The notes below the pieces were generated by a model that had not been told where the DNA came from, did not search any database, and saw only the letters and a program-made list of their open reading frames with translations. This document shows, in pieces, positions 6,169 through 44,240 of a stretch of 64,000 nt of DNA. Position 1 is the first letter of the stretch; the number at the start of each line of letters is the position of its first letter. The position numbers were made by a program, and so were the translations under genes. Source of the DNA: Leptolyngbya sp. 'hensonii' (GTDB lineage: Bacteria > Cyanobacteriota > Cyanobacteriia > GCF-001939115); NCBI RefSeq assembly GCF_001939115.1, contig NZ_MQTZ01000042.1, positions 1 to 64,000 on the forward strand, in the 5' to 3' direction.

Positions 6169-6221
6169 GGCTGGGGAACTTGATATTCTGAATCTTAATA
6201 GTACCGTTGCAGGGACCGAAT

Positions 6222-7166
6222 GTGACCATTGATCAACGCCCTACTGTTCGTCGAGTTCTGATCATTACCCTGGTGCTCAATCTGTTGGTCATGATCTTGA
6301 AAGCAGTAGTTGGGTTTTTAACCGGATCTTTAAGCCTGCTCTCTGACGCCCTCCATAGTGTAACGGACAGTGCCAACAATATTCTGGGGCTTGTTGCCAG
6401 CCGCTTTTCCTCCCCCGAGCCCGATCGGGAACATCCCTATGGCCATCAAAAATATGAGGCGGTCGGAGCCCTGGGAATTGCTGCCTTTTTGGGGATCGCC
6501 TGTTTTGAAATTTTGTCGGGGGCGATCGAGCGGATCTTATATCCTCCCACAGAGCCACTGCGAATTTCTGCGGTGGAACTCTGGCTACTGCTCATTGTTC
6601 TGGGCATTAACATTTTTGTTGCTTTCTACGAGCGTCACATCGGGCAAAAAATCGGTAACGCTATTCTGATCGCAGACGCCAAGCATACGATGAGTGATAT
6701 CTGGGTCACCATCACTGTTCTGGCTGGCCTGCTCGCCTTCTGGATGGGTGGAGCACGCTTTCCCTGGTTGCAATGGTTGGATGTCGGGTTAGCGTTCCCA
6801 GTCGCCCTGCTGGTGTTTTCCAGTGGTTGGTCTGTACTGCAGGACAATTTACCCTGGTTAGTGGATGAAATGGCGATCGCCCCAGAAGCTATCTACAGCA
6901 TTGCGATGAAAGTGGAAGGGGTTTTGAACTGTCATGAAATTGCCTCCCGTGGTGTTGTGGGTCGGCAAGTTTTCATTGAAATGCATCTGATTGTCAATGT
7001 CACCGATGTGGAAACTTCCCACCAGATTACGGAAGAAATTGAAGCCCAGTTGCTCGAACAATACGGACCAGCCCGCATTGTCATTCATGTCGAACCCCCG
7101 AGATACTACTCGGATCAGATCAGCTTCAGCCAGAGTAACCCTGATATTCCCCTGGAAGAGAGCTAA
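6222..7166 (+). CDS. Cation diffusion facilitator (CDF) family metal efflux transporter
   Basis: Inner-membrane metal/proton antiporter. The HxxxD pairs that form the transport site appear in TM2 (DALHSVTDSANN) and TM5 (DAKHTMSDIWV), and HPYGHQKYE is conserved between TM2 and TM3; the soluble C-terminal domain runs from about residue 210. His-Asp pairs in both helices fit zinc or a related divalent metal, but iron, cobalt and manganese cannot be excluded. I prefer the GTG at 6222 (314 aa), preceded by AGGGA at 7-bp spacing, over the TTG at 6207 that would give 319 residues. No metal regulator is adjacent. Confidence 0.88.
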   Translation: MTIDQRPTVRRVLIITLVLNLLVMILKAVVGFLTGSLSLLSDALHSVTDSANNILGLVASRFSSPEPDREHPYGHQKYEAVGALGIAAFLGIACFEILSGAIERILYPPTEPLRISAVELWLLLIVLGINIFVAFYERHIGQKIGNAILIADAKHTMSDIWVTITVLAGLLAFWMGGARFPWLQWLDVGLAFPVALLVFSSGWSVLQDNLPWLVDEMAIAPEAIYSIAMKVEGVLNCHEIASRGVVGRQVFIEMHLIVNVTDVETSHQITEEIEAQLLEQYGPARIVIHVEPPRYYSDQISFSQSNPDIPLEES

Positions 7167-16172: not shown

Positions 16173-17780
16173 GTGACTCTTCAAACCGAACACCTCCCTC
16201 AAATTGAATATCTGAGTGCGTTAAATCGCCAGATGATTGTCATCCTGGATTTTGGCTCCCAGTATTCTGAACTGATTGCCCGTCGAATTCGAGAAACCCA
16301 GGTTTACTCGGAAGTCCTCTCCTACCGAACCACTATTGAACAGTTGCGGCAGCTCAACCCCAGAGGGATTATTCTTTCGGGTGGCCCCAGCTCTGTTTAT
16401 GACGCTTCAGCGCCCAAGTGTGACCCGGAAATCTGGGATCTGGGAATTCCGATTTTGGGGGTCTGCTATGGCATGCAACTGATGGTGCAGCAGCAAGGGG
16501 GGGAGGTCGAAAAAGCCGATCGAGGCGAATACGGGAAAGCCTCGCTGCTGATCGATGACCCGACGGATTTACTCACTAACGTCGAAGATGGTACCACCAT
16601 GTGGATGAGCCATGGGGATTCGGTCACCCGTCTGCCGAACGGCTTTGGCCTGCTGGCTCATACTGGGAACACCCCCTGTGCCGCGATCGCGCATCACCAG
16701 AAGAAGCTCTACGGGGTTCAATTCCATCCGGAAGTTGTCCATTCGGTGGGCGGCATTGCTCTGATTCGCAATTTTGTTTATCACATTTGTGGCTGTCAGC
16801 CCACTTGGACCACGGCAACCTTTGTGGAAGAATCAATCCGAGAGATTCGCGGTCAGGTGGGAAGCAAGCGCGTCCTGCTGGCTCTGTCTGGAGGGGTTGA
16901 CTCTTCTACCCTGGCGTTTTTACTGCATCAGGCGATTGGGGATCAATTGACCTGCATGTTCATTGATCAGGGCTTCATGCGCAAGCTGGAGCCGGAGCGT
17001 CTCCTGAAGCTATTCCAGGAACAATTTCATATTTCGGTTGAGTACGTCAACGCCAGTGAGCGTTTCCTGGCTTCTCTGGATGGGGTCACTGATCCTGAAG
17101 AAAAACGGAAGCGAATTGGGCACGAATTTATTCGGGTTTTCGAGGAAGAATCCCGACGTCTCGGTCCCTTCGATTATCTGGCCCAGGGCACCCTTTACCC
17201 CGATGTGATTGAGTCAGCCGACACCAATGTCGATCCCCAGACTGGGGAACGGGTAGCCGTTAAGATTAAGAGCCACCACAATGTGGGAGGCTTACCCAAA
17301 GACCTGCGCTTTAAGCTGGTTGAACCCCTGCGCAAGCTGTTTAAGGATGAAGTGCGGAGAGTGGGCCGATCTCTGGGCCTACCTGAGGAGATCGTCAACC
17401 GCCATCCCTTTCCTGGTCCTGGTCTGGCCATTCGCATTTTGGGTGAAGTGACCTCTGAGCGCCTGGAGATACTGCGCGAAGCAGACTTTATTGTCCGGCA
17501 GGAAATCAACCGACAGGATATCTACCACGACTTCTGGCAGGCTTTTGCCGTGCTCTTGCCAATTCGGAGTGTGGGGGTGATGGGGGATCAGCGCACCTAT
17601 GCCTATCCGATCGTGCTCCGATTTGTCTCCAGCGAAGATGGGATGACGGCAGATTGGTCCCGAGTGCCCTATGATCTGCTAGAGTTAATTTCCAATCGAA
17701 TTGTGAATGAAGTTCCGGGTGTAAATCGCGTAGTTTATGATATAACTTCTAAACCACCTGGCACGATCGAATGGGAGTAG
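16173..17780 (+). CDS. guaA: GMP synthase (glutamine-hydrolysing)
   Basis: Converts XMP to GMP with glutamine as nitrogen donor. The class I amidotransferase domain comes first: the nucleophile is in GVCYGMQLM and the His-Glu pair in QFHPEV. The ATP pyrophosphatase domain has SGGVDSST, and the C-terminal dimerisation domain ends in PPGTIEWE as in almost all GuaA. The GTG start at 16173 gives 535 residues and the extended N-terminus seen in cyanobacterial enzymes; the first ATG would be at 16233 ([13 protein letters not shown]). The repeat-rich gap follows the stop codon. Confidence 0.95.
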
Positions 17781-17824: not shown

Positions 17825-17952
17825 GATGGAAAATCCCTTTAATGGAAAATCCCTTTAATGGAAAATCCCTTTAATGGAAAATCCCTTTAATGGAAAATCC
17901 CTTTAATGGAAAATCCCTTTAATGGAAAATCCCTTTAATGGAAAATCCTTGG
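17825..17952. repeat. Tandem array, eight 16-bp units
   Basis: Unit AATGGAAAATCCCTTT. Copies 2-7 are identical, copy 1 has one change and copy 8 is degenerate. Unit length is not a multiple of three and translation reaches TAA, so it is not a coding repeat. No spacers, so not CRISPR. Confidence 0.95.
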
Positions 17953-18016: not shown

Positions 18017-18115
18017 TGGTGTTCAGGTCCACGGTGTTCAGGTCCACAATGTTCGAACCCACAATGTTCGAACCCACAATGTTCGAACTCACAATGTTCG
18101 AACCCACAATGTTGG
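18017..18115. repeat. Tandem array, about 6.6 units of 15 bp with a GTTCGAAC core
   Basis: Two units TGGTGTTCAGGTCCA/CGGTGTTCAGGTCCA, then four CAATGTTCGAACCCA (one with T), then a partial copy. Units 3-6 each contain the palindrome GTTCGAAC. Confidence 0.93.
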
Positions 18116-18321: not shown

Positions 18322-18371
18322 TGTGGAAAACTGCCCGAAATCTGTGGAAAACTGCCTGCATCTGTGGAAAA
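18322..18371 (-). promoter_or_regulatory. Cluster of three DnaA-box-like sequences
   Basis: TGTGGAAAA at 18322-18330, 18343-18351 and 18363-18371, spaced 21 and 20 bp; this is the reverse complement of TTTTCCACA, the cyanobacterial DnaA box. The last two copies extend to ATCTGTGGAAAACT. Could be part of an origin or a DnaA-binding locus; dnaA and dnaN are not near. Confidence 0.6.
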
Positions 18372-18405: not shown

Positions 18406-19593
18406 TTATTCGGGTTGGTATAATCCTTGCAGGGGACTGTCTCTCTCTTCTGGAGTCAGATTTTTAGCCTGAACCAAAACGCCAAAATTCCCCAGCCCCA
18501 TCGGATTAATCAGTCCATGTAATGCCTCTCGCCGACGCAATCGTTCCGCGAGGGGCTGATCGGTACCACGGGTCAGCGCAGCCATCCGTTCCCCCATCCC
18601 CAGGGCCATCAAAAACAGTCCTTGCCGAGTAAAGCCGATCGTTTGCAACCCCTTTTGCTCTCCCCAGCGTTCCAGGGCTGTAAAATCCACATGGGCGGTT
18701 AAATCTTGCCAGCCTACATGGATATAGGGGTCAGAGTGATGGGTGTGGCGATAGTAGCATTGCAAAGTCCCCTCCCGGCGAGTGAGGCTGTAATAGCGAC
18801 TGGCTGGATAACCATAATCAATGGTCAATACATACCCCCGATGGAGCCGGTCTGCTACTGCTGCTAACCAATCCAGGGCGGTCAAATTTACCTCAGATCG
18901 ATACCCATCGGCATAGGAGCCTGACAACAGATCAATCCCTACCAGGGAAAAGTAGTCTACCAGTTGGCTCGTCGAGAGTTCTCCCACCCCATCCGCAAAT
19001 TCGGGGCCAGCGTCTCCCTCATGGGCTGTGACATACAGTTCCCGCAGATCCCCATCCTCGATTGTGACGCGATGCACAGGAAAGGCATCCACCAGTTCAT
19101 TCGAGAAGAAGCAACCTGTAATCGAATCTGAGGGAATCTCTGCCAGGGTTTGCCAGCGGAGCTCCGACCATAGGCTGAGCTGCTTTTCCTGGGCTGCTCT
19201 GAGCAGAGGAGACTTCTCAACGATGATGTACTGAAGGGCTTGAAAACAATCCGGACGACGATCGTGAATGGCCCGGAGCACATCCCCAGCCAGGATGCCC
19301 TGCCCTCCTCCCATCTCCACCAGGGTGAAGGGAACTGGAAGCCCCAGAATCTGCCACATCTGCACCAGTTGTTCTGCCAGCAGTTCTCCAAAATCTGACC
19401 CTAAATGGGGAGAGGTGTAGAAGTCCCCACCTGCTCCAATGTGAAGGGCCTGGGTGCTGTAATATCCCGCTTTAGGATGGTACAGGACCAGATCCATATA
19501 CTCGGCAAAGGAAATCCGCTGTTGGGGCTGGTTCAGAATGTGCTGGGCAATCAGATGTCGGAGCAGGGGGTTATCGTCTGTGACCTGGGACAT
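18406..19593 (-). CDS. SAM-dependent methyltransferase, MidA/NDUFAF7 (DUF185) family
   Basis: Class I methyltransferase; in mitochondria the relative NDUFAF7 methylates complex I subunit NDUFS2, and a role in NDH-1 assembly is plausible here but unproven. The N-terminus ISFAEYMDLVLYHPKAGYYS and the SAM motif LVEMGGGQGILAGDVLRAI (about residues 99-117) are diagnostic, as is FFSNELVDAFPVHRV (motif II). Length 395 is normal. It converges on guaA across the repeat region. The substrate is unknown. Confidence 0.85.
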   Translation of the reverse strand: MSQVTDDNPLLRHLIAQHILNQPQQRISFAEYMDLVLYHPKAGYYSTQALHIGAGGDFYTSPHLGSDFGELLAEQLVQMWQILGLPVPFTLVEMGGGQGILAGDVLRAIHDRRPDCFQALQYIIVEKSPLLRAAQEKQLSLWSELRWQTLAEIPSDSITGCFFSNELVDAFPVHRVTIEDGDLRELYVTAHEGDAGPEFADGVGELSTSQLVDYFSLVGIDLLSGSYADGYRSEVNLTALDWLAAVADRLHRGYVLTIDYGYPASRYYSLTRREGTLQCYYRHTHHSDPYIHVGWQDLTAHVDFTALERWGEQKGLQTIGFTRQGLFLMALGMGERMAALTRGTDQPLAERLRRREALHGLINPMGLGNFGVLVQAKNLTPEERDSPLQGLYQPE

Positions 19594-43235: not shown

Positions 43236-44240
43236 TTAGACGTTAACAGCAACCTTCGCCACCTTGGAGGTGACCCGTTCGTAGGTTGCGCGCATTTTTA
43301 GACCGGTTAGGACCTGGAACAGACCGGTACCGTTGTTGGAACCAGGGTATTCCCGGTGCTGCAGTAACAGGTGGGTCAGTTCACCCTCGTACTTGGTTGA
43401 GAGATTGCTAAGGTGCTTCTCAATGTAAATGACCTCTTCCAGGTTATCGAACTGGCCATCCACTTCCAGGGTGGAAACGCTGTGGCCGTAATAGTTGTCC
43501 GGCCCATAGAACATGCGGATGCCGGGATAGGAACAGGTCAACTTGCGCCCGCAGGGAATCCAGTCGATCGTGGAGCCTTCATCAAACAGGTAAGCCGGTT
43601 CAAACCCTTCGACATTATCCCGCTGGATCATCTGCACCCGTAGCACCTTCTTCTCCTGATCATCGGGAATCAGACGGGTCGTCATCACCCGCAGCACCAC
43701 ATCAGCATACTGTTTCTGAGGATCGATGTAGGCCGAGAAGTCAGGACGACGGGCATTGATTGCAGCCAGAACATCTTCATACCGGTGGCCACGCTCGGCC
43801 ATATCCCGCTGGATCTTCCAGGCAATTTTCACATCATCTGTAATATCCAGATAAACGCTAAAGTCAAGCAGCCCCCGGACCCGCTCATCATAGAGCGGAT
43901 GCAGCCCTTCAATCACCACTACATGATTGGGATGAACTAGCTCGGGAGGATCAATCATCCCAGTTTCGTGGTTGTAAATCGGCTTGTTAATGACTTCCCC
44001 ACTTTTCAGGGCCTTGACCTGTTCATACATCAGATCAAAGTTATTCGCCCTCGGATCCAGAGCTGTAATTCCTGTTTCTTTCCGTTGCTTCCGATCCAGA
44101 CTGTGGTAATCATCGAGGCAGATAACCGTGACGAAATCTTCCCCAAACAAATCTGTAATCCGCCGTAGAAAAGTGGATTTTCCACAACCGGAGTCTCCGG
44201 CAACGCCAATTAGTACCACACGGTCTGGCTTCATGGTCAT
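43236..44240 (-). CDS. prk: Phosphoribulokinase
   Basis: Calvin-cycle enzyme that makes ribulose 1,5-bisphosphate from ribulose 5-phosphate with ATP. 334 residues. The P-loop GDSGCGKST carries Cys19; Cys41 is in VICLDDYHS. This is the thioredoxin-regulated pair that CP12 and GAPDH exploit. A further pair, CGRKLTC, near residue 230-236, is also conserved in plant and cyanobacterial enzymes. Catalytic Asp in CLDDYH. Start ATG at 44240. Divergent from petH with a long upstream gap. Confidence 0.97.
   Translation of the reverse strand: MTMKPDRVVLIGVAGDSGCGKSTFLRRITDLFGEDFVTVICLDDYHSLDRKQRKETGITALDPRANNFDLMYEQVKALKSGEVINKPIYNHETGMIDPPELVHPNHVVVIEGLHPLYDERVRGLLDFSVYLDITDDVKIAWKIQRDMAERGHRYEDVLAAINARRPDFSAYIDPQKQYADVVLRVMTTRLIPDDQEKKVLRVQMIQRDNVEGFEPAYLFDEGSTIDWIPCGRKLTCSYPGIRMFYGPDNYYGHSVSTLEVDGQFDNLEEVIYIEKHLSNLSTKYEGELTHLLLQHREYPGSNNGTGLFQVLTGLKMRATYERVTSKVAKVAVNV

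Follow-up and report, generated by a model that had tools for sequence, protein, structure and literature searches.

The window analyzed here is the whole 64-kb stretch comprising positions 1 to 64000 of contig C42, part of a draft genome of 5.94 Mb in 77 contigs. It contains a gap bounded by the stop codon of guaA (17780) and that of a convergent MidA-like gene (18406). An exact word search of the full window located three copies of TTTTCCACA in this gap, all on the minus strand and in a single orientation, with start-to-start steps of 21 and 20 bp (Table 1), in agreement with an earlier note that had described three in-line cyanobacterial DnaA boxes 20 to 21 bp apart here. Boxes of this sequence in cyanobacterial oriC regions are bound by DnaA in vitro (PMC4674748). 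The window holds four copies in total against 0.58 expected by chance, three of them within 50 bp; the fourth, at 44178, falls within a coding frame. Boxes with one mismatch are not enriched across the window (21 versus 18 expected).

Table 1. Features at the guaA-linked box triplet (window coordinates)
Feature	Position	Strand	Basis and remarks
guaA, GMP synthase; conserved anchor gene, 3' end toward the triplet	16173..17780	+	Pfam GATase and GMP_synt_C; side and orientation constant in all guaA-linked loci
16-bp tandem repeat, 7.7 copies	17826..17948	.	Unique to the locus in the genome; judged outside the element
15-bp tandem repeats (GGTGTTCAGGTCCAC, then CCACAATGTTCGAAC)	18018..18113	.	CCACAATGTTCGAAC unit unique to the locus; judged outside the element
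DnaA box 3 (TTTTCCACA), closest to guaA	18322..18330	-	Exact match; invariant across 13 aligned guaA loci with 21/20 spacing
DnaA box 2 (TTTTCCACA)	18343..18351	-	Exact match; 21 bp from box 3; same 13-locus alignment
DnaA box 1 (TTTTCCACA)	18363..18371	-	Exact match; 20 bp from box 2; same 13-locus alignment
Methyltransf_28 (MidA-like) gene, convergent with guaA; variable neighbor	18406..19593	-	PF02636, E 5e-72; other genomes have different genes there

The gap is rich in repeats, as had been noticed previously, with the 16-bp and 15-bp arrays lying between the two stop codons. These arrays are perfect or near-perfect, and neither the 16-bp unit nor the CCACAATGTTCGAAC unit occurs anywhere else in the genome. 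Their proximity had been taken as support for an origin, titration, or reactivation locus, a use of them that we did not retain: we regard the arrays as bystanders and rejected them as part of the element, because in this genome they are confined to this locus and the gap is much shorter at most other loci of the kind (often 50 to 250 bp), the gap in the window having been made longer by the arrays. An RNA element was likewise rejected, the gap yielding no match to any Rfam family, and a link to the MidA-like gene, suspected at first, was dropped once the shared gene turned out to be guaA and the other neighbor variable.

Across all contigs we counted 69 exact copies of TTTTCCACA, compared to 25 for the reversed word, and box clusters stand out on contigs C39, C42 (the guaA triplet), C45, and C41. 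The C39 cluster consists of five perfect boxes in two opposed groups, together with near-matches, directly upstream of dnaN, a layout that agrees with the known position of cyanobacterial oriC beside this gene (PMC4674748). The observation that no dnaN lies near the triplet was thus borne out, since the dnaN of this genome is on C39 with a box cluster of its own, and these five boxes make it likely that the origin lies there, on another contig of the same genome. Cumulative GC skew falls across the window with no turning point at 18 kb, which we treat as weak evidence because skew is often irregular in cyanobacteria, as is described for many of their chromosomes (PMC7198777). Given the dnaN cluster and the lack of a skew turn in the window, we rejected an origin at the guaA triplet as the main reading. 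The earlier note had left open an origin, a DnaA-titrating locus, or a reactivating locus while leaning away from an origin, and had proposed a box census and a skew profile as checks; the census covered the genome and the skew profile the window. The origin option is not supported, and a dedicated non-origin site draws good support from the conservation behind guaA across many lineages described below. A constant distance from oriC was considered and rejected, as the dnaN-type cluster and the guaA triplet lie approximately 573 and 579 kb apart in two single-contig genomes of 5.5 Mb each, and approximately 1,490 kb apart in a third, of 4.7 Mb.

We searched 59 genomes of the class, including the window's own, for paired boxes at a spacing of 17 to 25 bp and recovered them in 45, with 0 for the reversed control pattern. 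Grouping by similarity the frames around 80 clusters and 3 from the window's genome, besides the window itself, revealed recurring contexts: dnaN (27 loci), a position upstream of a small DUF2811 gene that constitutes a second non-origin cluster (19 loci), and guaA (12 loci, including the window). At the guaA loci the three spaced boxes always occupy the strand opposite to guaA, past its stop codon, while the gene on the far side varies. We also read the 3' flank of guaA in 51 relatives and 80 named genomes as well as in the window, and at least two antisense boxes, usually three, are present at 29 of the 124 scorable loci; carriers include Kastovskya, Trichocoleus, Elainella, Kaiparowitsia, Oscillatoria sp. 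Prado101, and Phormidium tanganyikae. The cluster is missing behind guaA from all 36 scorable Nostocales-clade loci, and also from Thermosynechococcus and Microcoleus vaginatus; because it is absent from this position in most sampled genomes, it is not universally needed. Loss of dnaA was rejected as the cause of a missing triplet, since a gene with the DnaA C-terminal domain is found in all 59 sampled genomes, the window's own included. Several large Nostocales genomes (G059, G060, G061, G063, and G064) have only one or two paired-box loci, fewer than most genomes with a guaA triplet.

Mapped on a GuaA tree, presence of the cluster requires 15 changes compared to 26.2 in shuffles, with none of 500 shuffles as low, although this is a single-protein tree made with a fast method on which gain and loss are indistinguishable. 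The label is therefore clustered in a manner that indicates inheritance with several gains or losses. The exact geometry of three boxes at 20 and 21 bp is present in 28 of 390 class genomes and nowhere for the reversed control; in 23 of the 28 it lies behind guaA, always antisense and 53 to 713 bp away. The remaining five loci, whose genes were named by eye from protein sequence, are 3' of a cation-diffusion-facilitator-like gene (L305, L306, and L309; two with a small open frame between) or of a YggT-like gene (L307 and L308). This occurrence of the same element behind unrelated genes argues against it serving its neighbor. The window itself encodes a cation-transporter-like gene (6207-7166), beside which no box cluster is located.

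Comparison of 11 lineages with the 21/20 spacing shows boxes that are 100% identical, inner spacers that are 30% identical (about random), and flanks at 30 to 32%; these lineages were chosen through exact box matches, so the contrast between boxes and spacers is the informative part. Each box position carries 2.0 bits of information; around the center of the first spacer the values are mostly under 0.3, and beside the boxes they are raised. We also surveyed the spacing of neighboring same-direction boxes in relatives over a range of 9 to 39 bp, with oriC pairs included and three near-duplicate genomes excluded. Among the matches listed, 117 of 122 pairs lie within 1.5 bp of 10.5, 21, or 31.5 bp, compared to 35% for a flat distribution, and the maxima fall at 11 and 21 bp, plus a small number of pairs at 30 to 33 bp (classes of 9 to 12, 20 to 22, and 30 to 33 bp). 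Two guaA loci have a longer second step of 30 and 31 bp, which corresponds to three turns. What is retained behind guaA despite randomized spacers is three identical boxes in one orientation and on one face of the helix.

These patterns make it likely that the triplet is dedicated to binding a DnaA oligomer outside the origin and acts on the supply or state of DnaA; it probably holds (titrates) DnaA or tunes its activity rather than serving as an origin. DnaA molecules would bind the three boxes side by side to form a short ordered oligomer, which would either keep DnaA from oriC or shift its ATP/ADP state. Replication of the locus as a fork passes would then alter the DnaA available for the next initiation. 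The triplet would act in trans on oriC and not on neighboring genes. Two converging genes flank it in the window, and at other loci the boxes persist as the neighbor changes. Titration, inactivation, and reactivation would each fit the same sequence evidence alike. We found no publication linking the DnaA box, cyanobacteria, and guaA among open-license papers, and DnaA ChIP-qPCR in cyanobacteria, as presented in parts of two reports, addressed oriC and a single control gene (PMC6478999, PMC7198777).

By analogy, the triplet may work like the DnaA-box clusters of Bacillus subtilis or the datA and DARS loci of Escherichia coli. Removal of all six non-oriC clusters in B. subtilis leads to early initiation, and re-introduction of one cluster at various places partly relieves this effect, which fits a DnaA sink (PMC5295017). 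The guaA triplet resembles these in comprising several consensus DnaA boxes clustered outside oriC, but differs in being compact, same-direction, fixed at a two-turn spacing, and anchored behind guaA across lineages. Both datA and DARS alter the nucleotide state of DnaA in E. coli, and datA, which lowers active DnaA, combines five boxes with an IHF site that it requires (PMC4585315). The likeness to datA is that of a non-coding DnaA-box locus away from oriC, but the triplet has three boxes, and the strict datA mechanism, or a copy of datA, is unsupported because we found no IHF consensus near it. With DARS the triplet shares a core of three boxes, in number only: DARS1 depends on a particular flank and DARS2 on IHF and Fis, whereas the flanks of the triplet are not conserved (30 to 32% identity) and, of the protein sites, the IHF consensus that we examined is missing. 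Extending the analogy, we tentatively suggest that cyanobacteria may have a trans-acting DnaA control set of their own, composed of the guaA triplet, the DUF2811 cluster, and oriC, which would be datA/DARS-like yet IHF-free, would rely on same-direction boxes in helical phase, and would have been lost from some lineages, Nostocales among them.

Several other explanations bear on the same evidence. The fixed position and orientation of the triplet relative to guaA could reflect transcriptional control, with DnaA at the triplet regulating guaA itself, a transcript running antisense into it, or the gene on the far side, and a role for GTP supply as a partner of replication control would be plausible. 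A promoter role is possible at the second conserved cluster, upstream of the DUF2811 genes, and in some genomes the gene past the guaA boxes points away from them, so that a local promoter effect is possible there. We nevertheless consider this unlikely for the triplet, as the boxes lie behind guaA at a variable distance (the 53- to 713-bp range of the 23 exact-geometry loci), the other neighbor varies and is convergent in the window, the gap has no terminator-like site and no excess of promoter-like sites over chance, and the identical geometry is also present 3' of unrelated genes. A site for another protein that reads TGTGGAAAA, or a tandem repeat inherited neutrally, would account for the units in the window scoring as a 21-bp tandem repeat (90% match); however, neutral descent would not yield invariant boxes with near-random spacers between lineages, and the word is an established cyanobacterial DnaA box that is also clustered at dnaN, making this pair of explanations quite improbable.

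A second or former replication origin would be in keeping with the use of the same box word at similar spacing in the dnaN cluster of the same genome, with the AT-rich sequence that adjoins the boxes at some loci, and with the several firing places reported for some cyanobacteria (PMC7198777). Set against this, oriC at dnaN has more boxes, arranged in two opposed groups and adjacent to dnaN, none of which holds for the triplet, and the window has no skew turning point. AT-rich flanks are present in all three contexts (guaA, dnaN, and DUF2811) but those at guaA are, on average, shallower than those at dnaN, with a median lowest 30-bp GC of 0.30/0.32 compared to 0.27/0.20. A simple search for DnaA-trio-like repeats 3' of the boxes returned none at any of the three locus types and is non-discriminating for that reason. 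On this balance we regard a second or former origin as highly improbable, and a non-origin DnaA site remains the reading that we prefer.

Cyanobacteria are often polyploid, and to our knowledge little is understood of how they limit initiation. An element of DnaA boxes that is fixed, deeply conserved, and separate from oriC offers a concrete 50-bp stretch for deletion or relocation, and the pattern of genomes that have or lack it can be compared with dependence on DnaA. In Nostoc sp. PCC 7120, DnaA is dispensable (PMC7198777), and no scorable Nostocales-clade locus carries the element behind guaA.

The other box clusters of this genome have features of their own. The DUF2811 cluster lies at G000:C45:14537-14620 (L033:5537-5621), with examples in relatives at L083, L070, and L081; its boxes are often spaced 22 and 21 bp apart, and in several genomes the gene after DUF2811 encodes a protoporphyrinogen oxidase that is HemJ-like or HemY-like. 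The cluster on C41 comprises three perfect boxes in small open frames (L032:7300-7518; G000:C41:455299-455517) in a region with an integrase-like gene; this region may be a mobile element that employs DnaA boxes in its own way.
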